DNA from: Deltaproteobacteria bacterium
GTDB lineage: Bacteria > Myxococcota_A > Polyangia > Haliangiales > Haliangiaceae
Reading direction: 5' to 3'
NCBI GenBank assembly: GCA_013813765.1
Contig: JACCRC010000169.1
Span: 1 to 40,331, forward strand
Length of the DNA stretch: 40,331 nt
Below are positions 3,089-20,855 of the stretch, one piece after another; positions within the stretch are counted from its first letter, which is position 1; every line of letters begins with the position of its first letter. The position numbers were made by a program, and so were the translations under genes. The notes under the pieces are model-generated. The model was not told the origin of the DNA, did no database searches, and saw only the letters and a list, made by a program, of their open reading frames with translations.

Positions 3089-4138
3089 ATGAGGGTGACC
3101 ACGAAGCTCGGGTTCTGCCTGGCGCTCGCGACAGCCGCGTGCAGCTCCGCCGGTAGTGGCGGCGGTGATGACGACGGCGGCGGCGGCGGTGGCGGAGGCG
3201 GCGACGGCACGCCCGACGCGGCCGTCCCGCAACCCAAGCGCGTTCGCTTCATCGCGATCGGCGACAGCGGCAAGGGCAACGCGGACCAGCGCAAGGTCGC
3301 GATCGCGATGCGCGATCTGTGTGCGCAGAAGGGCTGCGACTTCGTCCTCATGCTCGGCGACAACATCTACGACGCGGGTGTCTCGAGCACGACCGATCCG
3401 CAGTGGCAGACGAAGTTCGAGCAGCCCTACAACGACGTGAACCTCCCGTTCTACGTCGCGCTCGGCAACCACGACTACGGCGGCAAGTTGATCGTCGACG
3501 CCCCCGGCATCGGCAACGAGTTCAACAAGGGCCTCGTCGAGGTCGCGTACTCGCAGGTCTCCACGAAGTGGAATATGCCGGCCACGCACTACACGTTCAC
3601 GCAGGGGCACGTCGGCTTCATCGTCCTCGACACCAACTCGATCGTCTGGTCGAACACCACGCACGGCGATCAGGCCGCGTGGCTCCCGACCGCGATGATG
3701 GAGGTGCAGGGCAAGGACTGGGTGTTCCTCGCCGGTCACCACCCGTATCGCTCGAACGGCACGCACGGCAACGCCGGTGACTACGACGCGCCCGAGCTCG
3801 CCGGCATCCCGATCCCGAACCCGCTGCCGATCCAGAACGGCGACGCGATGAAGAGCTTCTTCGACGCGAACATGTGCGGCCTCGGCCAGATCTTCTTCAC
3901 CGGTCACGACCACAGCCGCCAGTGGCTCAACGAGGCCGGCTCGATGTGCGGCATGCAGCAGATCGTCTCCGGCGCAGGCGCCACGGTCACCGAGCTCCGT
4001 GACCGCGGCAACGACGCCTACTACGAGGACGCGTCGAAGCCCGGCTTCTTCTACGCGGACATCGAGGGCAACAAGTTCACCGGCTCGTTCTACGACCTGA
4101 ACGGCAACCTCGACTTCACGCGGACGTTCACGAAGTAG
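3089..4138 (+). CDS. Secreted metallophosphoesterase, purple-acid-phosphatase-like
   Basis: A 349-residue exported metallophosphoesterase. All signature blocks of the calcineurin-like fold are present in order: GDSG (58-61), GDNIY (90-94), GNHDY (126-130), GHHP, and GHDH near the C-terminus, which supply the Asp, Asn and His ligands of a dinuclear metal site. The GDNIY spacing and overall length match tartrate-resistant acid phosphatases. The N-terminus is a signal peptide with a weak lipobox (TAAC, Cys18), followed by a long Gly/Asp linker (about 24-40) typical of surface lipoproteins in this window. The start at 3089 is chosen because it gives a clean signal peptide; an ATG at 3065 would add eight residues in front. 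The likely role is phosphate release from extracellular phosphomonoesters. Confidence 0.9.
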   Translation: MRVTTKLGFCLALATAACSSAGSGGGDDDGGGGGGGGGDGTPDAAVPQPKRVRFIAIGDSGKGNADQRKVAIAMRDLCAQKGCDFVLMLGDNIYDAGVSSTTDPQWQTKFEQPYNDVNLPFYVALGNHDYGGKLIVDAPGIGNEFNKGLVEVAYSQVSTKWNMPATHYTFTQGHVGFIVLDTNSIVWSNTTHGDQAAWLPTAMMEVQGKDWVFLAGHHPYRSNGTHGNAGDYDAPELAGIPIPNPLPIQNGDAMKSFFDANMCGLGQIFFTGHDHSRQWLNEAGSMCGMQQIVSGAGATVTELRDRGNDAYYEDASKPGFFYADIEGNKFTGSFYDLNGNLDFTRTFTK

Positions 4139-4146
4139 TCCCCGCC

Positions 4147-4797
4147 GTGTCCGCCTCGCGATCGCGCACGCGGTTCGCCGCACCGTTCATCGTTACGGTG
4201 GCGGCCGCCGGCTGCTCGAAGAGCGAGAGGACCTCGAATCCGCCGCCGCCCATGTTCCCCGGCATCACGTACCGGGTGCGCATGGCGGACATGCTCTGCT
4301 ACGCGAACGAGGTTCTCCGCGGCCAGCCTGCGCCGAGCGACAAGCCGCAGCCCACGTACAACCCGCCGCCTCCGCGCGCGATCGAGTGCCCGCCCGGCAT
4401 GTCCGGCAACACCGTGCTCGTCGTCGGCCACCTCTCGGGCTCCGAGTGCGGCATCGTCCCCGACGGGTGCACCACCACTGCGTGCGTGAAGATCCGCACG
4501 CCGTGTCCGCTTCCGCCCGGACGGCCGTACGCGCAGCAGCTCGCGAACGTGTGGACGATCGAGAAGCGCGACGACAAGTGCCACGCCGAGGAAGGCGATC
4601 ACGACGACTGCCCGCCCGGCAAGGACTGCAACCCGCCTGCGCCCCGCTTCGTACCGTGTCCACCTGGCATCACCGAGGCCGATCCCATCCGCGTCGCCGA
4701 GCTGCCCAACGCGACCTGCGTGATCGTGCCGCCCGGCTGCAAGGACACGAGCTGCATCGGCGCGAAGATCGCCTGTCCGACCGAATCACCGAAGTGA
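4147..4797 (+). CDS. Cys-rich lipoprotein with an internal duplication
   Basis: A 216-residue predicted lipoprotein with GTG start and lipobox AAGC (Cys23). A proline-rich stretch is followed by two copies of a Cys-rich module, about residues 81-121 and 171-211. Both follow the pattern CPPG...C-x-IVP-x-GC-xx-T-x-C...I...CP, and the conserved cysteines probably pair as disulfides outside the cytoplasm. The linker between the copies is also Cys/His/Asp-rich (KCHAEEGDHDDC), so metal binding is possible. I do not recognise the family. It starts 8 bases after the phosphoesterase stop, so the two are probably one operon. Confidence 0.8.
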   Translation: MSASRSRTRFAAPFIVTVAAAGCSKSERTSNPPPPMFPGITYRVRMADMLCYANEVLRGQPAPSDKPQPTYNPPPPRAIECPPGMSGNTVLVVGHLSGSECGIVPDGCTTTACVKIRTPCPLPPGRPYAQQLANVWTIEKRDDKCHAEEGDHDDCPPGKDCNPPAPRFVPCPPGITEADPIRVAELPNATCVIVPPGCKDTSCIGAKIACPTESPK

Positions 4798-5090
4798 CGG
4801 CGTGGGCCACGTGGCCGCGCCAGCTCTCAACAACGAGACACAACATTGAATCCCACGTGCAACACTGCGGCGATCTCGTCACCGAGGGTGCCCAGTCGCA
4901 CTGGACCGAGGGCGACGGCCACTGCCACGCTCACAAGGGCTGTGCTGCGACTGTAGTCGAACCGAGATGCGGGCACGTAGCGAGCCGCACACGCGCACGA
5001 ACTGTTCTCCGCCGGAGCCGCGCCGCGTCGCGGCCGTGACGGTGGTGGCGTCGCGGCGCACAGGTCCGTCGGAAGCGAGCCGTGACGAAC
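4798..5090. other. Gene-free stretch, possibly a decayed coding fragment
   Basis: No ORF with a credible start is seen in these 293 bases. In one plus-strand frame, about 4839-4976 reads as an open Cys/His-rich stretch including HWTEGDGHCHAHKGC. This faintly resembles the WTIEKRDDKCHAEEGD linker of the Cys-rich lipoprotein just upstream. No ATG or GTG with a ribosome-binding site precedes it. It may be a degraded duplicate of that gene's tail, or chance. Confidence 0.3.
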
Positions 5091-5504
5091 CTAGAGGTGG
5101 GTCGCGAGTGCCTCGAGCTTCGCGCGCACGACGCGGGGCCGTTCGAATAGCTCGCCGAGAGCGAACGCCGCCGCTCGATCGACCGGATACTCGCCGCGCT
5201 CCCACCGGGAGATGGTCTCCGGTCGCACACCGAGCAGCTTCGCAAGATCGACCGCAGTGATATCGAGCTCCTTCCGCACGAACTGGAACTGTCTTCCATC
5301 GCGGATCCCGCGCGCCACCATCACGGAGGCGGCTTCGGCCTCCATGCGCGCGAGCTCCGCGTTCGCGATCAGAAACTCGTCGCAGAACCGACACGCCAGC
5401 CCGCGTCCGCGGACTTCGAGCCCGCAGATCTCCGCGGAGCTCTCGCGGTCACGTAGCGCGTTCTCCTTCTTGCAGGTCGGGCACTTGGTCATAGTCATGT
5501 TCAA
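5091..5504 (-). CDS. MqsA-like antitoxin (zinc-binding + HTH)
   Basis: A 137-residue two-domain protein matching MqsA-type antitoxins. The N-terminal part carries two Cys pairs, KCPTC near residue 7 and LACRFC near residue 37, expected to bind zinc. The C-terminal half is an XRE/Cro-type helix-turn-helix: LDITAVDLAKLLGV followed by the recognition helix in RPETISRWERGE. In this family the HTH binds a palindrome upstream of the pair and represses it. The start may be any of Met1, Met3 or Met5. It lies 9 bases after the toxin stop, the toxin-first order typical of mqsRA-like loci. Partner and operator are described in adjacent entries. Confidence 0.88.
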   Translation of the reverse strand: MNMTMTKCPTCKKENALRDRESSAEICGLEVRGRGLACRFCDEFLIANAELARMEAEAASVMVARGIRDGRQFQFVRKELDITAVDLAKLLGVRPETISRWERGEYPVDRAAAFALGELFERPRVVRAKLEALATHL

Positions 5505-12427: not shown

Positions 12428-12835
12428 ATGGCATACGTCGTTGCTGACCCGTGCGTGAAGTGCAAGTACACCGACTGTGTGGCCGTGTGCCCCGTCGACT
12501 GCTTCTACGAGGGCAAGAACTCCCTCGCGATCAATCCGGACGAGTGCATCGATTGCGGCGCGTGCGAGCCCGAGTGCCCGACGACCGCGATCTTCGAGGA
12601 GAGCGAGCTGCCCAGCAAGTGGGCCGTCTACAAGGACATCAACGCGCTCGTGTCGGGCGCGAAGAAGGCATCGGATGTCGACGCCGCGTCGTGGCCCGGG
12701 CACCTGAAGGACGCCGCCGCGACCGCGGACACGTGGCCGAACATCACCGAGCAGAAGACACCGCTGCCGGGCGCGGATGACGCCGCGAAGGAAGACAACA
12801 AGATCGCCGCGCTCACGCTCGACGGCGGCAGCTGA
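12428..12835 (+). CDS. fdxA: 7Fe ferredoxin FdxA
   Basis: A 135-residue seven-iron ferredoxin of the Azotobacter FdI type. Cysteines fall at 9, 12, 17, 21, 25, 40, 43, 46 and 50: [17 protein letters not shown], then [12 protein letters not shown]. The first cluster is expected to be 3Fe-4S and the second 4Fe-4S. The C-terminal tail with [16 protein letters not shown] is also typical of FdI. The protein is somewhat longer than the usual ~107 residues because of an Ala/Lys/Asp-rich insertion around 77-95. It is cytoplasmic, a low-potential electron carrier; its partner enzyme cannot be told from the context. It converges on the UspA gene 7 bases away, and CGCCTAGGCG (12840-12849), a perfect 10-base palindrome, lies over the UspA stop. 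Confidence 0.95.
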
Positions 12836-12842
12836 TCGTCGC

Positions 12843-13742
12843 CTAGGCGTGACCGTGTACCACGAGGACGGTGCACGGCGCGTGACGGATCGTGTTCTCG
12901 GCGACGCTGCCCAGCAGCAGACGCCTCACGCCGCGGTGGCCATGCGCGCCCACGACGATCAGGTCGTGACCGCCACGCTCGGCGGCCGCCGTGATCACCT
13001 GCGTCGCCGGACCCTGCACGAGCTCGACGTGCACCGGGTTTCCGAGCGACGCAGCGGCCTTCACGGTCTTGTCGGCCTGCGCCTTCGCGCTCGACAGCAC
13101 GGCATCGCGAACCGTCGACCACGGGAAGCGCGCCTGGCCGAGGAGCGTGGCGCCCCACGAGCCGGCGGGCAGCTGCCACGCGTGAACGAGCTCGATCGGT
13201 ACGCCTGGCGGACACAGCGCTGCGGTGTGCTCCAGCGCCATCACCGCGGCCGGCGAGAAGTCGGTGGCGACGAGCGGCTTCGCGAACGGTCCGCGCACCG
13301 GACCACGGCACACGAGCACGTCGCACGTCGCGTGACGGATCACCTCGGTGGCCTGGCTGCCGATCAAGAACCGCGAGATGCCGGTGCGGCCGTGCGTGCC
13401 GACGACGATCAGCTCCGCCTTGCGCTCGTTGGCAGCAGCCGTGAGCACCTCGCCAGGAGGACCGATGCGGCTGATCACGTCGGCGGTGAGGCCGCGCGAC
13501 TGGATGAGCGTGAGCTTGTCGGCGAGCTGGCGCGCTTCCTCGACGCGCACCGCTGCACTGACCTCGCCGATCTGCTTGAGCATCTCGACGTCGACGTGCT
13601 CCATCGGCGCGTCGTCGGCCTGGGCGTGGACGAGGACCATGTGAGCGCGGTGCTGCTCCGCGATCTGCAGCGCGCGCTCGACGGCGCCGTCGCTTCCTTC
13701 GGAGAGGTCACAGCCGACGAGGATCGTGGTGATCGCGCCCAT
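12843..13742 (-). CDS. Tandem universal stress protein
   Basis: A 299-residue protein made of two UspA domains (about 1-150 and 155-299). Each has the ATP-binding signature G-xx-G-x9-G-S: GTHGRTGISRFLIGS in the first and GAHGHRGVRRLLLGS in the second, so both may bind ATP. Each starts with the typical strand and loop (ILVGCDLSEGSDGA; PLVATDFSPAAVMA). It is the last gene of the seven-gene operon that begins at 20855, 2 bases after the preceding stop, which suggests coupling. UspA proteins respond to stress and starvation; its link to the surface nuclease genes is by co-transcription only. The start at 13742 gives the canonical N-terminus; the ORF upstream overlaps the previous gene. Confidence 0.93.
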   Translation of the reverse strand: MGAITTILVGCDLSEGSDGAVERALQIAEQHRAHMVLVHAQADDAPMEHVDVEMLKQIGEVSAAVRVEEARQLADKLTLIQSRGLTADVISRIGPPGEVLTAAANERKAELIVVGTHGRTGISRFLIGSQATEVIRHATCDVLVCRGPVRGPFAKPLVATDFSPAAVMALEHTAALCPPGVPIELVHAWQLPAGSWGATLLGQARFPWSTVRDAVLSSAKAQADKTVKAAASLGNPVHVELVQGPATQVITAAAERGGHDLIVVGAHGHRGVRRLLLGSVAENTIRHAPCTVLVVHGHA

Positions 13743-13744
13743 GG

Positions 13745-14767
13745 TCACTTCCCCAGGGTGAGGACGACTTCCTCGGTGTCGGAGTAGTCGAGGGCGAGCT
13801 TCGGCCGACTCCACGTGGTCTTCGTGCTGCCGGTGCTCTCGTCGGACGTCGCGGGCTTTCCGAACAGCTTCTGCAGCTGCGCCTCCAGCGCTTCTCGCGT
13901 CTCCACGCTGGCGGTCGTGTAGACGGTGAGCTTCGTGACCTTGCCGCCCGCGAGCGTCGCGTTGAACGTGGTCGGCTTGGTGCCGACACCGAGCCCCGGA
14001 CCGGCCCAGCTGACCTCGCCATTGTCCTCGACGGGCATCTTCGCGACGGCCTCCACCTTGCTCGCCGACTGGCCGATCAGCGAGAGCGGCACGACCGACG
14101 ACGCATCCTTCGTGATCCACTGCTCCGGCGTGACGTAGCGCTCGAACGCGAGCTCGCAGCGATACTCGTTCGCGAACGTCGCGCGAAGCTTCTGCACCGG
14201 GTTCAGCCAGACTGTCACGTCCGCGGAACCCGTGACGAGCTCGCCGCCGCCCCACGCGCTGCGCAGGCCGCTGGCGAGCTCCTCGCACAGCGCCTCGCGA
14301 TCATCGCTGTCGCCGGTCGCGCCGGGCCGGATCTCGAAGCGATCAAAGGTGTCGGCGCCGATCCCCGAACCGGTCGTGATCGTGCTGTCGGTGTCGTCCT
14401 GGAACTTCTCGCGGCGCTGAATGAAGTCGTCCACCGGCGTGTTCGCAGCGGCGCCGACGGGGAGCCCGGCAAACAGTGTCCCGGGCGTGGCGGCCTCGGT
14501 GCCGTACAGGTCGCGCACGGCCTTCAGCTTCAGCTTGCGAGCGGCCTCTTCCTCGGCACGCTCGCGCTCGTCGCGTTCCTCGCGCTCCTTGCGATACGCC
14601 TCGTAGGCTTCCTCGGACTCCTCGTCGCCCTCGTAGCTGTCCTCTTCGTCGGCGTACTCCGAGCGGTCCTTGGGCTCGTGCTTCTCGCCCATCGTCTTGT
14701 AGGCCGCGAATCCGAACAACCCGAGCGTCACCGCTCCCATCACGAACGTCGACTTGGGGATCGCCAT
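13745..14767 (-). CDS. Membrane-anchored protein with charged linker
   Basis: A 340-residue protein of unknown family. Residues 7-24 form a single membrane helix (FVMGAVTLGLFGFAAYKT). A very acidic then mixed-charge Glu/Arg/Lys segment follows (about 30-80), probably an extended or coiled-coil helix, and then a soluble domain of about 250 residues with two cysteines. The domain has no motif that I recognise. If the helix is an uncleaved anchor with the domain outside, it would span part of the periplasm. It starts 14 bases after the beta-barrel gene stop and ends 2 bases before UspA, so it belongs to the nuclease operon. The charged linker might connect the inner membrane to the barrel; this is speculation. 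Confidence 0.82.
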   Translation of the reverse strand: MAIPKSTFVMGAVTLGLFGFAAYKTMGEKHEPKDRSEYADEEDSYEGDEESEEAYEAYRKEREERDERERAEEEAARKLKLKAVRDLYGTEAATPGTLFAGLPVGAAANTPVDDFIQRREKFQDDTDSTITTGSGIGADTFDRFEIRPGATGDSDDREALCEELASGLRSAWGGGELVTGSADVTVWLNPVQKLRATFANEYRCELAFERYVTPEQWITKDASSVVPLSLIGQSASKVEAVAKMPVEDNGEVSWAGPGLGVGTKPTTFNATLAGGKVTKLTVYTTASVETREALEAQLQKLFGKPATSDESTGSTKTTWSRPKLALDYSDTEEVVLTLGK

Positions 14768-14781
14768 CGCCGCCGACGCTA

Positions 14782-16986
14782 CTACAGGCGCGCTTCGTAC
14801 GACAGCCAGAGTTGGAGCTCGGGGTCGGGCGTCCGGAGGCCCGTGCTCGCACGGTCGTCGAGCCAGAACTTCGTATCCGCGCGCAGGTGCAGGGTGTCTC
14901 GCTCGCGCAGCTTGAACGCGACATCCGCCATACCCGTGAGGGAGGTCTCCAGATAGCCGTCGTTCGCGATCGCCTCGTCGAGGTAACGCGCGCGGGCGCG
15001 CACGCGGACGGTCTTCTCCGGATGCCACAGCGCGATCGCCCACACCGCGAAGTCCTGCCGGAACTTCGACTTCGATGCCGACGTCGAGTTGTCGTCGAGC
15101 AGCTGGTGCTGCAGCTGCAGCGTCAGCGCGAGCTTCTTCTCGGGCTGGTAGGTCACCCGCCCGATCGAGGTGAGCTGGCGGCCGGCGCACGGCACCGGGC
15201 CATCGATCGGGTCGGTCTCGGTCACGACCTCGTAGCACTGATTGTGGCCACCGAGCGACAGGTCCTTGTCCTGGTAGCGCTCCGAGAGTCCGAGCTTGAT
15301 CTGATCGCTCGACTTCACGTCGACGCGCACGTAGGTGTCGAGCTTGGGCTGCCAGTCGCCGTCCTTGATGGTCGACGGTGGCACCCACACGTCGAGCTGA
15401 CCGCGCAGCGTGTAGCGCTTGCTCGAGCGGATGTACTTCGTGCGCAGACCGGCTTCGTCGCGGGCGCGCTGGCCCTCGAACTCGTCGGCCTGTGCGATCG
15501 GTCGGCCGTAGGGGTTCGCGTACTCGCTCGAGTAGTAGCGCGCGACGATCTCGAGCTCCTCGCGCTTGCGCGAGGCGGTCATTCGCAACAGCACGGCGGG
15601 ACCACCGCCGGCGAGCACGCGATCCGTCGCGTCCTGACCGTTCGGATCGACGACGGTGGTCACGTTGAGACCCGCCTCACCGAACAGATCGAGCCAGTCG
15701 CGGCCGAACGAGAAGCTCGCGCCCGCGGCACCGAACTGCCGGCCCGTCGGGTAGCGCGACCACTCCTGGAAGTCGAGCGCGATGCCGCTCACGAGATTTT
15801 TCTCGCTCGCACCGTACGCCGTGACGCCGACGGAGTTCCGGCGATCCGCGAAGTACGAGACGTTCACGCCGACGAGGCGCTCGAGGAACACATCAGGCAG
15901 CGTCGCGTACGCGTGCGCGGCGGCGGGCTGCAGCGGGTTGCCGTCGGGGCGCACGTAGACCGGAGGTGCACTGCACTCGTTCGTGGTGTTGCGCGGATCC
16001 TCGCAGATCGCGCTGTCGACGAGCTCGTACTGGTAGATCGAGCGCGTCGACGCACTGGCCCACCCGAACACCTGGAGCCACCCGGCGCCGGCGATCTCGA
16101 GCTTCTTCGCGCCGAGCCCCACGCCGAACAGCGCATCGCGCCACGTGTAGTCCGGCGTGTCGTAGATCTGCGGGACGTTCTCGGGGCACGGCGTTCCCGC
16201 CAGCTCGCCCGTGGAGCGCTTGCAGTCGCGCGAGAGGTCGACGGCGTAGTTGAGCTGGTCGTCGTGGTACAGGCCGTTCGGCGTGTAGTCGTTCGAGTTG
16301 TCGAAGATCAGCTTCTGGCCAAAGCCGGCGCGGAAGCTGCCGCCGATCGCGGCGAAGTCCTCGGTCTCCCACTTGAGGAAGACCTTGGGCACGTGGAGCT
16401 GCGTGCTGCGCGGATCGGCGATCAACGCGCCGCGGTTCCTGTCGTACGTGGGATCGCCGATGCGCAGGCGGGTCGTGGTTGCCGCGATACCCGCCATTAG
16501 ATTCTTGTAGGCGGTGAACCGCGCGCGCAGCATGAACGGCGGAAACAGATCGTCGTGGACCTCCCACCGCGTCTGGATCTTCACGAAGCCGTGCAGGTTC
16601 ATCGGGTTCTGGCCCGGCGGCTTGACGACGATGAACACCGAGATCGCGAGGAGCTTCTCCTGCGATAGCGCGCCCGCCGAGGCGAGCTCCGCGGGGTCGC
16701 GAATGATCCCCTTGTTGAGCTTCCGGTACTCGATGATCTTGTCGACGTCCTCGTAGGTGAGGTTCGGCAGCGAGTACAGCTCCTGCCGGTTCGCGGTCGA
16801 CAGTTCGACGCCGCGCTCGAGCAGATCCAGCAGCTGGTCGTAGGTGTCCTGCGAGATGTCCTGCGACGCGAGCAGGTCCTCGAGGTCGGCCTGGTCGTTG
16901 ATGTCGATGAACGTCTCGTACGGGATTGCGTGTGCCGGCCGCACGGCGAGCACCACGATCAGACCAGCGAGGAATGCCGCGCGCAC
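14782..16986 (-). CDS. Outer-membrane beta-barrel with N-terminal helix-hairpin-helix
   Basis: A 734-residue exported protein. A Sec signal peptide ends at about AHA-IP (residue 20). Residues 25-115 are helical and contain a helix-hairpin-helix resembling ComEA: ELYSLPNLTYEDVDKIIEYR, then PAELASAGALSQEKLLAISV. In ComEA this fold binds double-stranded DNA without sequence specificity. From about 125 to the end are alternating amphipathic strands of outer-membrane-barrel type (FVKIQTRWEV, RLRIGDPTY, LALTLQLQHQLL, VRVRARARYL), ending in LQLWLSYEARL, though the last residue is not the usual Phe. It lies between nuclease genes and a membrane-anchored protein, with 17- and 14-base gaps. It is a candidate DNA channel or docking protein. 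The barrel call is good; DNA binding is inferred. Confidence 0.85.
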   Translation of the reverse strand: MRAAFLAGLIVVLAVRPAHAIPYETFIDINDQADLEDLLASQDISQDTYDQLLDLLERGVELSTANRQELYSLPNLTYEDVDKIIEYRKLNKGIIRDPAELASAGALSQEKLLAISVFIVVKPPGQNPMNLHGFVKIQTRWEVHDDLFPPFMLRARFTAYKNLMAGIAATTTRLRIGDPTYDRNRGALIADPRSTQLHVPKVFLKWETEDFAAIGGSFRAGFGQKLIFDNSNDYTPNGLYHDDQLNYAVDLSRDCKRSTGELAGTPCPENVPQIYDTPDYTWRDALFGVGLGAKKLEIAGAGWLQVFGWASASTRSIYQYELVDSAICEDPRNTTNECSAPPVYVRPDGNPLQPAAAHAYATLPDVFLERLVGVNVSYFADRRNSVGVTAYGASEKNLVSGIALDFQEWSRYPTGRQFGAAGASFSFGRDWLDLFGEAGLNVTTVVDPNGQDATDRVLAGGGPAVLLRMTASRKREELEIVARYYSSEYANPYGRPIAQADEFEGQRARDEAGLRTKYIRSSKRYTLRGQLDVWVPPSTIKDGDWQPKLDTYVRVDVKSSDQIKLGLSERYQDKDLSLGGHNQCYEVVTETDPIDGPVPCAGRQLTSIGRVTYQPEKKLALTLQLQHQLLDDNSTSASKSKFRQDFAVWAIALWHPEKTVRVRARARYLDEAIANDGYLETSLTGMADVAFKLRERDTLHLRADTKFWLDDRASTGLRTPDPELQLWLSYEARL

Positions 16987-17003
16987 CGTCTACGAAGCTA
17001 ACA

Positions 17004-17474
17004 TCAGTTGCAGGGGATCGGGTCGCACTGGCCCCACAGACCTTTCTTCGCCGTCTTCGCCGCGCTCTCGAGCGCCTTGAACTCGGCGAGTCGATCCGCA
17101 CCGTCGGGTGGGATGTGGAGCAGGCAGCCGTAGCCGCGCTCGATCATCAGCGAGTTGACCTCGACGCCACCGACCGACACGAACGCGAGCGTGCGCCCGA
17201 AGCGGTCCTGACACTCGACGTCGTACTCGAGCTCGACGGTCTGGTTCAGCACGAGGTCGGTGTTGAACATCACCGCGTTCGAGCCGTAGCACTCGTTCTT
17301 GCCGCCCGTGGTCTCGGGCGCGTTGACCATCAGGTAGCGGACCTTGAGGCCGTTCTCGAGCTCGATCGTGTCGCCGTCGATGATCCGGGACACCACGGCC
17401 GAGGACGGTCCGCACATGGAGCCAGTTTCACCGCAGCCTGCGACGAGCACAGCAAGCACGAGCCACCGGCTCAC
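17004..17474 (-). CDS. Lipoprotein nuclease (SNase/thermonuclease family)
   Basis: A 156-residue predicted lipoprotein (lipobox VAGC, Cys14) with a single staphylococcal-nuclease domain. Compared with the S. aureus enzyme, the residues read IDGDT (Asp33, Asp35), Arg46 (Arg35 equivalent), Asn51 in place of the metal ligand Asp40, Glu54 (Glu43) and DRFGR with Arg94 (Arg87). The essential Arg-Glu-Arg set is intact; the Asp-to-Asn change also occurs in homologues. Cysteines at 21, 62, 88 and beyond suggest disulfides. It should cut extracellular or periplasmic DNA or RNA. The GTG at 17474 overlaps the previous gene's TGA (GTGA) and is preferred to the GTG at 17480. Confidence 0.92.
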   Translation of the reverse strand: MSRWLVLAVLVAGCGETGSMCGPSSAVVSRIIDGDTIELENGLKVRYLMVNAPETTGGKNECYGSNAVMFNTDLVLNQTVELEYDVECQDRFGRTLAFVSVGGVEVNSLMIERGYGCLLHIPPDGADRLAEFKALESAAKTAKKGLWGQCDPIPCN

Positions 17475-19192
17475 GGGCACTGCGCGTTATCCGCCTTCGG
17501 CGTGCCCATGTTCGACATGTCGCCGTAGCCACCGACGCCCGCACAGAAGTTCGCGGGCGTGTCGTTACCTGCCGTCGTCTGCTGATCGGGATCGAGCGAC
17601 TTCGAGACGCCGGAGGTCACCGACGGATACGTGATGACGTCGAGCACTGCGTTCGCGTTGTCGCGGACCTCGATGTTGCCGGTGGTGTCGATCAGGCTGA
17701 ACGTGAACACGGCGTCGACGGCCGGCAGCATCGCGTTGACCGCGGGGTCGTTCGAGCGCGCGAACAGCGCATAGCCGCCCGCCGCGACCGGCTTGCACAT
17801 CGCGGACTGGATCACGTTCGCGGTGCCACCGGTGCGGGCGAGCCCGAGCTCGTTGAGATCGAACGCCGCGATGCCGGTGTTCTTGATCTCGAACCACTCG
17901 CGCTGCGCGTCGGTGAAGCCGGTGACGTTGGCGGGATTCGCGAGGAACTCGGTGATCACGACCTGGCCCGCGATGGGCCGCACGATCGGGCGGAGGACGC
18001 CGGTGCCCGGATCGCACATGCCGACGGTCGAGCCAGCACACTGCGGGTTTGCCACACCGGGCGTGCCCTGGTCGCCGCTGCCGAACACGGTGGAGCCATC
18101 GCAAAAGTTCGACTCGGCGTCGTTGTCGGCCGCGTTGAGGAAGTCGGGATCGAGCGCGTGCGACCGGGCGCTGCGCGAGCTCGTCCAGGTGACCGCGTCG
18201 ATCACGTTCGTGCCGGCCATCAGGCGGACGTCGCCGGGCGCGGCGGCGGTGCCGTCGATCAGCGCGAAGCTGAACGTGCCGGAGATCGGGTTCGGCAGGC
18301 CGCCGTTCATCGTCATGTCGGCGTTCTTAGCGAACACCGCGTATTGGCCGGTGCGCAGGCGAATGCAGGTCGCGCTGTTCACGAGGTTCGGGTTCGAGCT
18401 ATCGCCCGCGCGGTCCAAACCGACGCCGTTGAGATCGACGTCGGTCTTCGCGAGCACCTCGAACCACTCGCCGGCGGTATCGCTGACGGCACCCGGGTTC
18501 GGCATCACCTCGGTGATGACGAGATCTCCGGGCATCGGCGACACGGCGTCGCGCATCGCGCCGCCCTCGCTGCACTGGCCGACGATCACCGGCGCGCAGT
18601 CGCTGTCGGAGCCGGGCGTGCCGAAGTTGCCGGTCTCGAACTCGCTGTCGTCGGCCTGGCACCACTGGCTCGGATCGTCGTTGATCGAGTAGTCGGGCGG
18701 CTGCGCGTTCGACAGCTGGCGCGCGTGACCTTCCTTGACGGACTCGTAGGTCGCGCCGTCGATCAGCGTGCTCTTGCACTGCAGAACGAGCTTGCCGCCG
18801 TCGCTGTTGAAGAAGTCGCCGAGGTCGGCGCTGTAGCCGTAGTCGACGAACGGCCGCACGAGGTCGGGCGTGGTGTTACCGAGGGTCAGGAACTGACCGG
18901 GCCCGATCGTCATGTCGTCCATCACGTGCGACTTCGCCTTGTCGACACCATCGGGCCGGCTGTGCGTGACCGTCATGCCCTTCAGCTCGACCGGGCGATC
19001 CGTGGCGTTGTAGATCTCGAACCACTCCTTGCCTTCGTCGGTTCCGCTGCCGCCGGGAGGCGCCTTCGCATCCGCGAACACCTCGGTGATCACGATGTCG
19101 CCGGGAAGGAGCTTGTCCTTGCAACCGTCGCCGCTCGCGGAGGGTCCGCACGAGGAGACCGCGAACAGGCCGGCAAACAGGACGACGCGCAT
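17471..19192 (-). CDS. Lipoprotein with three lamin-tail domains
   Basis: A 573-residue predicted lipoprotein (lipobox VSSC, Cys15) built of three lamin-tail-domain (LTD) Ig-like repeats, about 29-185, 218-385 and 405-573. Each begins with the LTD hallmark: LPGDIVITEVFADAK, MPGDLVITEVMPNPG and IAGQVVITEFLANPA, followed by EWFEI/EWFEV, and ends with a SxSLDPD / NFC / GTPG-type signature. LTDs in bacteria occur in secreted proteins and are often fused to or near nucleases and phosphoesterases; they are thought to act as binding or scaffold modules. It lies between the two nuclease genes, overlapping the second by four bases. The start at 19192 is set by the signal peptide. Confidence 0.93.
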   Translation of the reverse strand: MRVVLFAGLFAVSSCGPSASGDGCKDKLLPGDIVITEVFADAKAPPGGSGTDEGKEWFEIYNATDRPVELKGMTVTHSRPDGVDKAKSHVMDDMTIGPGQFLTLGNTTPDLVRPFVDYGYSADLGDFFNSDGGKLVLQCKSTLIDGATYESVKEGHARQLSNAQPPDYSINDDPSQWCQADDSEFETGNFGTPGSDSDCAPVIVGQCSEGGAMRDAVSPMPGDLVITEVMPNPGAVSDTAGEWFEVLAKTDVDLNGVGLDRAGDSSNPNLVNSATCIRLRTGQYAVFAKNADMTMNGGLPNPISGTFSFALIDGTAAAPGDVRLMAGTNVIDAVTWTSSRSARSHALDPDFLNAADNDAESNFCDGSTVFGSGDQGTPGVANPQCAGSTVGMCDPGTGVLRPIVRPIAGQVVITEFLANPANVTGFTDAQREWFEIKNTGIAAFDLNELGLARTGGTANVIQSAMCKPVAAGGYALFARSNDPAVNAMLPAVDAVFTFSLIDTTGNIEVRDNANAVLDVITYPSVTSGVSKSLDPDQQTTAGNDTPANFCAGVGGYGDMSNMGTPKADNAQCP

Positions 19193-19209
19193 GTGGGTTC
19201 CTTCGAGTA

Positions 19210-20289
19210 TCACTTGCTTGCGCTCGCCGTGGGAATGGAAAGACCTGGCACCGGGCACAGCGTGATCTGGCTGGCACGATCGATCTGGATCTGCAGCTGT
19301 TTCTTCTTGTTGTGCTTGTTCTCGTAGAACGTCGGCACGCCCGTCACGATCACGTACTCGCTCTTCCACTCGGAGATGCCAGAGGTACCGAGCACGTCGC
19401 GGTCGAAGAAGATCAGCGGAAAATCCGCGAACAGGCGGCGCGACAGCGTCACGCGCGTCGGGCCCTTCTCGCCGATTCGCACGTCACCGACGGTGCCGAG
19501 CAGCTTCACTTCCTTGCCCAGGTTCGCCTCGAGCTGCTGGAGCGCGTCCCAGTGCGTGATGTCGATGTAGTTCGACTTGCCCTCGCCCTCCTTGCGGAAC
19601 GCGTCGACGAAGTTCCCCCGCGCGACCCACCAGGCCTCACGCTCGGCGTAGTCGGGATACGCCGGCGCGCCGGGCTGCCAGATGCCGCGTTTGGCCTGCT
19701 TCGCCTCGTCCTGCGCGGCTACGAACTCCGCGTGGAACCGGCGCGAGTTGCCGTACTTCGGAAAGTACGGCGACATGCCGGCGCGCACGACCTCGATGTT
19801 GTAGTTCACCCACGTGCCCTTCTTGTTCGCGAACACGTACGCGAGGTAGCGGTTGTAGCGATCGCGGATCTCCGCCGGGTGATCGCGCTCGATGCGGACC
19901 TTGTCGACGCCAGCGAACCAATTCTTCGCGAACACTTTCGCCTGCTCGCCCATCGGCGTCGCGCCCTTCACCGGCCGGGTCGAGTTGCCCTTCTTCGCCT
20001 TGATGTACGCCTCGAAGCCGGCCTCGGCTTCGCGGCGATCCGCCTCGTTCTTGAACGTCTCCTCGGTGTCATCGCCGATCAGGCGGAGCGACGAGTCGAG
20101 GCCCTCGACCTTGATCGTGTCGCCGTCGACGATCTTCGTCAGGTCGAACTCGCCGACCACGATGCCCGGGGCCTCGAGCTTCTTGAGCGACTTCTGCGCC
20201 TGCTTGCGCGAGTAGCGTTCGCCACCGACGGGCGCGCACGCGGTGACGAGTGCGAGGAGGCCGACGAGGAGTCTGTTCGTCACGGACAT
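19210..20289 (-). CDS. Lipoprotein nuclease with C-terminal OB-like extension
   Basis: A 359-residue predicted lipoprotein (lipobox VTAC, Cys18). An SNase domain spans about 40-205 with all catalytic positions kept: VDGDT (Asp55, Asp57), Arg69, Asp74, Glu77 and RDRYNR with Arg147; YGNSRRFHAEF and AKRGIW complete the fold. An insertion of about 30 residues (80-112) lies after the first active-site loop. Residues about 250-345 form a second, strand-rich domain (GKEVKLLGTVGDVRI, PLIFFDRDVLG, SEYVIVTGVPTFYENK) that reads like an OB-fold and may bind nucleic acid or another subunit. The lamin-tail gene upstream overlaps it by 10 bases, and the triple lamin-tail gene starts 17 bases after its stop. 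Confidence 0.92.
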   Translation of the reverse strand: MSVTNRLLVGLLALVTACAPVGGERYSRKQAQKSLKKLEAPGIVVGEFDLTKIVDGDTIKVEGLDSSLRLIGDDTEETFKNEADRREAEAGFEAYIKAKKGNSTRPVKGATPMGEQAKVFAKNWFAGVDKVRIERDHPAEIRDRYNRYLAYVFANKKGTWVNYNIEVVRAGMSPYFPKYGNSRRFHAEFVAAQDEAKQAKRGIWQPGAPAYPDYAEREAWWVARGNFVDAFRKEGEGKSNYIDITHWDALQQLEANLGKEVKLLGTVGDVRIGEKGPTRVTLSRRLFADFPLIFFDRDVLGTSGISEWKSEYVIVTGVPTFYENKHNKKKQLQIQIDRASQITLCPVPGLSIPTASASK

Positions 20290-20855
20290 GCGGTGTTCGC
20301 TTTCTGCGGCGTGCCTGGGAAGCTGCCGGTGTTCGTGGTGGTGTCGGTGCACCAGTTCGCGGGGAGATCGTTCGCTTCGGCGGTCGGCGGTGTGGCGCCG
20401 AGCGAGTACGTGCCGGCGTTCGGAAGCGAGTTGTAGATCACCCGATCGAGCTGCTCGCCGCAGACCTCGACGTCGACGGCGGCCTGCGAGGGCCAGCTCG
20501 CGTGGAAGTCGGCCGAGATCCCGTAGTCGTGGTACGCGGGGCGATTCATGTCATCGGCGAGGCCGAGCACGACGTATGCGCCGGGGGCTACCGTCAGCGA
20601 GCGGCGCACCAGCGTGGGAGTCTCGTCGCTGCCATTGAGCCGGCGGAAGCGGACCTTGATGCCGAGCAGATCCACGCTCTTGCCGCTCGCGTTGTAGAGC
20701 TCGATCCACGGCTTCAGCGTGTCCATGCCCGTCTGCTTGCCGCCGATCTCGGAGATGACGAGCTCGCCGGGTGCGAGGTCGGGGCAGCTCGCGCTGTCGG
20801 GGTCTCGGACGCACGCACCCACGAGACCCAGAAGTAACAGACCGGCGACACGCAC
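20280..20855 (-). CDS. Lamin-tail-domain lipoprotein, first gene of nuclease operon
   Basis: A 191-residue predicted lipoprotein with GTG start (MRVAGLLLLGLVGAC, Cys15) and a single lamin-tail domain: PGELVISEIGGKQ, PWIELYNASGKSVDLLGIKV, and the closing ANDLPANWC...GSFPGTPQKAN signature. It is a shorter relative of the triple-domain protein two genes downstream. It overlaps the following nuclease gene by 10 bases (20280-20289), so the two products are probably made in similar amounts. It is the first gene of the operon; the promoter must lie within or beyond the small divergent ORF that starts at 20874. Confidence 0.9.
   Translation of the reverse strand: MRVAGLLLLGLVGACVRDPDSASCPDLAPGELVISEIGGKQTGMDTLKPWIELYNASGKSVDLLGIKVRFRRLNGSDETPTLVRRSLTVAPGAYVVLGLADDMNRPAYHDYGISADFHASWPSQAAVDVEVCGEQLDRVIYNSLPNAGTYSLGATPPTAEANDLPANWCTDTTTNTGSFPGTPQKANTACP

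Follow-up and report, generated by a model that had tools for sequence, protein, structure and literature searches.

Gene content and organization of the locus

We analyzed a 40,331-nucleotide stretch of DNA (the window) from a Haliangiaceae genome listed as Deltaproteobacteria bacterium (contig JACCRC010000169.1 of assembly GCA_013813765.1), in which seven minus-strand genes span positions 12843-20855, running from 20855 down to 12843 (Table 1). The first five encode two lamin-tail domain (LTD) lipoproteins, two SNase lipoproteins, and a protein that joins a ComEA-like helix-hairpin-helix (HhH) domain to a predicted outer-membrane barrel, hereafter the HhH barrel. These five genes form a conserved module, and its nuclease position is filled, as judged from family matches and motifs, by one of three unrelated families, namely, SNase, a NucT-like PLD lipoprotein, or a ComEC-type metallo-hydrolase (MBL). 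The conserved pairing of these parts, together with the exchange of the nuclease kind in evolution, suggests a so far undescribed mode of DNA handling on the surface of the cell. The host genome is an 8.1 Mb draft that is 88% complete, and a tblastn search for carriage of the module on plasmids gave no match at E 0.001.

Table 1. The seven minus-strand genes of the locus, in order of transcription
Gene product	Position	Strand	Features	Status
LTD1, lamin-tail lipoprotein, single domain	20280..20855	-	191 aa, GTG start, lipobox LVGAC	core
SN1, SNase lipoprotein	19210..20289	-	359 aa, lipobox LVTAC, conserved C-terminal domain of unconfirmed fold	core
LTD3x, triple lamin-tail lipoprotein	17471..19192	-	573 aa, lipobox VSSC, acidic	core
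SN2, second SNase lipoprotein	17004..17480	-	158 aa from upstream GTG, lipobox LVAGC	core
HhH barrel	14782..16986	-	734 aa; signal peptide, ComEA-like HhH (~residues 58-122), then ~600 residues predicted as outer-membrane barrel	core
Membrane-anchored acidic protein	13745..14767	-	340 aa; no Pfam family above cut-off	peripheral
Tandem universal stress protein (UspA)	12843..13742	-	299 aa; Usp 186.7 bits	peripheral, possibly co-transcribed

An earlier reading of the window (the original prediction) had described seven tightly packed genes, and the recomputed junctions agree with the overlaps and gaps that it gave (-10, +17, -4, +17, +14 and +2 from gene 1 to gene 7), the third one, between LTD3x and SN2, being -10 instead of -4 if SN2 starts at the upstream GTG. 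The LTD, SNase and tandem UspA products that it named all have Pfam matches above the cut-off, and lipoboxes are present in all four of the proteins that it called lipoproteins. LTD1 scores 37.1 bits and LTD3x 85.5 bits over three stretches against the LTD cut-off of 34.3, while SN1 and SN2 score 51.9 and 60.6 bits, respectively, for SNase. We then compared the alignment columns at the catalytic positions of SNase: in SN1, six of the six checked positions are invariant in 14 of 14 aligned rows, and in SN2 five of the six are invariant in 18 rows, the equivalent of Asp40 being N in five rows, including the SN2 of the window. Given their families and motifs, the nuclease-type proteins of the module are probably active. 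The OB-like tail that had been assigned to SN1 was not confirmed, as a sequence-only comparison of a profile of 10 tails with PDB sequences gave two matches up to E 10, neither of which is named as an OB fold.

Conservation of the module in the family and beyond

Our genome searches were centered on Myxococcota and covered the family (30 genomes), the order (35 genomes) and a phylum sample (377 genomes). In the family, where SN1 and LTD3x were sought at E 1e-20 and 26 regions around the barrel were fetched, the barrel is present in 25 of the 30 genomes, SN1 in 28 and LTD3x in 29. The ordered core LTD1-SN1-LTD3x-SN2-barrel was found in 12 of the 26 regions, from six of the seven genera, with LTD1 homologues at the corresponding place in family loci; in four of these 12 (L041, L047, L050 and L051), the core is interrupted by an additional 1.5-3.2 kb. 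At least half of the 14 regions without the ordered core are interrupted by a contig end. The original prediction was to stand or fall with the conservation of gene order in relatives, and the order is indeed conserved, with the exceptions weighed below. Its seven-gene unit held for the five core genes only: UspA lies downstream of the barrel in 11 of the 26 regions, and homologues of the acidic protein lie beside the barrel in four, all from one genus (L038, L040, L041 and L043). We therefore rejected a seven-gene system and treat these two genes as peripheral.

Outside the family, the barrel profile matched 27 of the 35 order genomes and 67 of the 377 genomes of the phylum sample, making the HhH barrel the most widespread part of the module, and the ordered five-gene core is present in families other than that of the window as well. 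We inspected the surroundings of the barrel match in 63 of these 67 genomes (all except G063, G126, G215 and G401). Altogether 86 loci matched the barrel profile, namely, the window, 25 of the 26 family regions (L063 was unmatched) and 60 others; they include fragments (e.g., L060, L062, L142 and L143), two loci for some genomes, and one locus (L157) that by sequence holds an ordinary ComEA-like domain rather than a barrel. At least 4 kb are available on both sides in 47 of the 86 loci, which are related and hence not independent. Within 4 kb and on the same strand, an LTD gene is present in 44 of these 47 and a nuclease-type gene in 43 (36 SNase, 4 PLD and 3 MBL). Among the remainder, L053 has SN2 only, L058 has LTD only, and in L113 an SNase gene lies just past the 4 kb limit, beyond a very long LTD gene. 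Outside the window, the 8.1 Mb host genome has six sites with LTD domains, from which we estimate that an LTD would lie that near to a random place of this genome in less than 1% of cases. The order of the parts varies between loci (LTD-SN-barrel, barrel-LTD-SN and LTD-barrel-SN) while the set is constant, which argues for a function rather than mere inheritance as a block.

Several further genes were seen near the module or among relatives of its parts. A ferredoxin-like gene (named from its sequence) adjoins the end of the operon on the plus strand (12428-12835), and in several family loci a homologue of it is located close to the module. The insertion in L041 (4824-7816, genome G011) holds three open reading frames between SN2 and the barrel, with no Pfam match at E 0.01. 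In two distant loci a similar opposite-strand gene lies near the barrel (L107:4514-5152 and L110:7377-8015), and its product resembles an RNase H-type N-terminal domain. Elsewhere in the host genome, contig C169 (3475-4269; L173:3418-4365) encodes a stand-alone LTD lipoprotein with 48% identity to the first part of LTD3x, and on contig C380 (L166:7645-10120) a gene for a 94-aa ComEA-like HhH protein overlaps the start of an LTD and CotH kinase gene, which is a second HhH-LTD neighbor pair in this genome.

Three unrelated nuclease families at one position

In nine distant loci, a short PLD-family lipoprotein is encoded immediately upstream of the barrel. The five of these proteins that we tested match Pfam PLDc_2, and all nine have the HKD motif and, by eye, a lipobox; NucT was the best NCBIfam match of the two tested (58 and 73 bits), far from its equivalog cut-off of 297. 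Two further loci with weak PLD matches (L128 and L129, at most 57 bits) were excluded from the count. In seven loci, an MBL metallo-hydrolase is encoded downstream of the barrel, with the HxHxDH motif in seven of seven and, by eye, a signal-like N-terminus in six of seven; the best NCBIfam match of the one tested was ComEC_Rec2, below its cut-off and over the C-terminal hydrolase part. One locus (L101) carries both PLD and MBL genes, and in four (L148, L149, L098 and L151) a PLD or MBL gene is present and no LTD was found. L108 encodes an SNase-LTD fusion protein (3512-5329), which is divergent from the barrel-LTD-SNase locus.

In a barrel tree built by a quick method from 82 rows, the MBL loci form one clade, and the SNase loci fall in separate places. 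The five labels need 17 changes on this tree versus a mean of 29 when shuffled, although 17 overstates the true number of swaps, since the label 'none' takes in truncated contigs. Our strongest evidence for an action of the module on nucleic acid is that unrelated families with a shared nucleolytic chemistry have replaced one another.

The HhH barrel protein

The HhH barrel alone scores 20.1 bits for Pfam HHH_3, below the cut-off of 27. However, HHH_3 is matched at E <=0.01 by all 22 aligned barrel members, including the protein of the window, with a best value of 4e-10. The top match of the barrel profile among PDB sequences was ComEA (8dss, E 0.0068). A structure model of residues 20-125 built from three input sequences reached a predicted local distance difference test (pLDDT) score of 82.5, and its top Foldseek match was again 8dss (probability 1.00, TMq 0.53, rmsd 1.8, E 0.084), with none of 30 matches at E 0.001 or better. 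An HhH fold of the ComEA-like family, as had been predicted for the N-terminal region, is therefore well supported.

The ~600 C-terminal residues are predicted to form an outer-membrane barrel, judging from two features of the sequence. Amphipathic strand periodicity was seen in 0.34 of windows along these residues versus 0.154 +/- 0.032 in shuffled sequences, whereas by the same measure the profiles of SNase and LTD differ from their own shuffles by less than 1.5 standard deviations; and all 22 aligned rows end in F, L or Y, as is common in outer-membrane barrels. In a Pfam scan of the 22 aligned members at E 0.01, three families were matched, and DUF560 (Slam) was not among them. TonB receptor or plug domains were matched neither by the barrel of the window (E 1) nor by the 22 members (E 0.01). 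Membership in the Slam and TonB-receptor families was rejected on these results. T2SSK was matched by one of the 22 aligned members and, below the cut-off, by three of five scanned distant barrels.

Predicted surface location of the LTD and nuclease proteins

At position +2, the four lipoproteins of the window carry V, A, G and G; with Asp in none of them, they lack the inner-membrane retention signal and are not predicted to stay in the inner membrane, in line with the original prediction. The Asp+2 rule is known from E. coli and may not hold for myxobacteria. Our regular expression for lipoboxes is crude and misses plain ones, including those of most PLD proteins, so we relied on it for the window only. 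A different anchor was seen by eye in an LTD protein of 10 of the 11 PLD or MBL loci that have an LTD, and in L152, namely, a C-terminal Cys motif followed by a hydrophobic or transmembrane stretch and an Arg cluster. One such protein was tested against NCBIfam MYXO-CTERM and scored 17.2 bits versus a cut-off of 15.85 (E 0.0057), with no single stretch within the E limit. In Myxococcus, MYXO-CTERM sorts proteins to the surface via the type II secretion system (PMC11980579). The use of two unrelated anchors for the LTD partner argues that its display at the surface matters.

A putative surface complex for nucleic-acid processing

We propose that the five genes encode a surface complex that processes nucleic acid and whose cut products enter through the barrel, and we give this reading about an even chance. 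The acidic lamin-tail proteins, lipid-tethered to the outer membrane, would serve as a surface scaffold, on which one or more tethered nucleases would cut extracellular DNA. The barrel, with its periplasmic ComEA-derived HhH domain, would form the invariant center of the complex, and DNA pieces or oligonucleotides would most likely reach the periplasm through it. The imported products could serve phosphorus, nitrogen and purine salvage, and perhaps also supply a separate ComEC pathway. Inferred in this picture are the barrel itself, a single complex of all the parts, DNA as its substrate, import and not export through the barrel, and a nutritional purpose; the capture and import of DNA are less well supported than a surface assembly of nucleases with an outer-membrane protein at its center.

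A number of observations weigh against this proposal. The seventh genus of the family is represented by a 99% complete genome (G021) with an LTD1-LTD3x-barrel locus from which the SNases are missing; it has no SN1 match genome-wide, and no nuclease of the three kinds is encoded near this locus, SN2 not having been sought genome-wide. The LTD block lies ~12 kb upstream of the barrel in G028, while in the genus of the window an LTD-SNase block is inverted and 3.6 kb from the barrel in G012, and barrel and LTD block are on separate contigs in G002, G003, G004, G006 (at a contig end) and G015. Five of the 30 family genomes have no barrel, four of them retaining LTD3x. Beyond the family, L099 and L116 have a barrel without an LTD or nuclease gene within 4 kb, and of the 39 loci that are too short for a judgment, with less than 4 kb on one side, 15 show no partner. 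As for the proteins, a full-length barrel model from three sequences was unusable (pLDDT 34.4), and the LTD proteins are acidic (median charge per 100 residues -8.4 for LTD3x and -7.9 for LTD1), which speaks against simple electrostatic binding of DNA. This last objection is softened by one other exported window protein that is as acidic as they are, and Ca2+ might possibly bridge acidic LTD proteins and DNA.

The HhH domain itself also tells against a direct hold on DNA. GxG, the DNA-contact hairpin motif of ComEA, is absent from the first hairpin of all 48 readable window-type HhH domains (0/48), which instead read LPN[LIM] in 48 of 48 cases; among more distant relatives, LPG[VLM][TS], which is half of the motif, is frequent at this hairpin. 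The window-type domains are acidic as well, with a median charge of -4, whereas two ComEA-like proteins of the host genome have +4 and +10 and one from another genome has 0, although this last value means that charge alone does not cleanly separate the barrel HhH from ComEA. The barrel HhH is more likely to dock proteins or to act as a gate than to bind DNA in the classical manner. The DNA-binding HhH of the original prediction found no support, and its surface DNA machine stands only in part: the DNA theme is strengthened by the nuclease swap, while DNA binding by the HhH is unsupported and the LTD proteins are acidic.

Alternatively, the barrel could be a Slam-like exporter, in which the HhH docks the LTD and nuclease lipoproteins and moves them to the surface, with no import. 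Proteins are possible ligands of an HhH domain that lacks GxG. A barrel with a periplasmic domain beside genes for four lipoproteins resembles the layout of Slam, and the T2SSK matches described above point the same way. However, no aligned barrel member matches DUF560, and in PLD and MBL loci the LTD protein mostly carries the MYXO-CTERM-like anchor, which argues against the barrel being required for its export, yet the barrel is retained. The barrel might nevertheless export the nuclease, such as the PLD lipoprotein of such loci. On balance, we regard an exporter as unlikely.

Since the nuclease kind is swappable, cutting alone may be what matters, and the complex could be a surface DNase for defense or biofilm that destroys phage, matrix or prey DNA, with the barrel as a mere anchor. 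ExeM, an LTD nuclease, breaks down extracellular DNA and has an effect on biofilm (PMC6085458); in the same paper, ExeM without its LTD still degraded DNA, a further point against our proposal. For proteins that are already lipid-anchored, however, a dedicated barrel of 700 residues whose periplasmic HhH domain is conserved would seem superfluous, and we consider a surface DNase of this kind quite unlikely.

A third alternative is a pilus-independent step of transformation, in which the nuclease nicks surface DNA and the barrel hands a strand to periplasmic ComEA and ComEC. The HhH domain is ComEA-derived, the host genome has ComEC, and the two replacement nucleases have relatives among proteins of transformation or DNA salvage (ComEC MBL and NucT). 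Transformation in Riemerella requires an HhH protein and a predicted barrel (PMC8459023), but the likeness to these is by description. Moreover, the HhH domain of the module is degenerate, and PilQ, ComEC and two ComEA-like proteins are encoded elsewhere in the host genome. Ordinary transformation would thus not need the HhH barrel, a point that counts against our own proposal too, and we think such a step very unlikely.

Returning to the surface complex with import through the barrel, its strongest form would be an undescribed pilus-independent DNA-uptake machine of Myxococcota, consisting of an LTD scaffold, a swappable nuclease, and a barrel gated by a ComEA-derived domain, which we put forward only tentatively and regard as somewhat doubtful. 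A conserved operon with a candidate conduit, swappable nucleases and a surface scaffold would offer a direct genetic test of how DNA, or large fragments of it, could pass the outer membrane when no type IV pilus is involved. If true, the proposal would also bear on the feeding of predatory myxobacteria on lysed cells, and would place bacterial lamin-tail domains, the role of which the ExeM paper calls not yet elucidated (PMC6085458), in a functional context.

Comparison with known systems

The original prediction knew of no described system of this composition, and searches of an open-access library aimed at the module, or at its parts in combination, gave no description of it, nor does any paper of that library name both 'helix-hairpin-helix domain-containing' and 'lamin tail domain-containing' proteins, although subscription papers lie mostly outside it, so that the absence is no proof. 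Slam (DUF560) resembles the module in having a barrel with a periplasmic domain near lipoprotein genes, but the module barrel has an HhH domain and no DUF560, whereas the N-terminal domain of Slam is TPR. The SusCD and TbpAB uptake systems likewise combine surface lipoproteins with an outer-membrane barrel and a hydrolase; the module barrel differs in having a periplasmic HhH domain and no TonB receptor or plug match, and its predicted substrate is nucleic acid. H. pylori NucT, reportedly an outer-membrane-associated nuclease for purine salvage from DNA, is a PLD-type outer-membrane nuclease like the PLD proteins of the module, of which it was the best NCBIfam match in the two tested, but the latter score far under the NucT cut-off. 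In Riemerella, RA0C_RS02645 (HhH) and RA0C_RS04915 (a predicted barrel) are both essential for transformation (PMC8459023, in the main text of which the word 'lamin' is absent); there, the HhH domain and the barrel are on separate proteins, and the comparison is by description.

The lamin-tail extracellular nucleases (ExeM and the DNases of Deinococcus and halophiles) share with the module the pairing of an LTD with an exported nuclease, which in L108 takes the form of an LTD-SNase fusion. However, the LTD and the nuclease of the module are mostly separate proteins encoded in an operon with a barrel, and its nucleases are of families other than the DNaseI/EEP type. A paper on a Thioalkalivibrio DNase (PMC4486849) considers LTD and HhH as accessory domains that may be analogous to each other in secreted DNases. 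Finally, the ComEA/NucA/ComEC competence system is similar in its ComEA-type HHH_3 domain and its membrane nucleases, and one lineage of the module uses a ComEC-type MBL hydrolase. LTD proteins are, to our knowledge, not part of competence systems. ComEA is small, whereas the module protein has 734 residues, ~600 of them strand-rich, and its HhH domain, without GxG, is fused to a predicted outer-membrane barrel.

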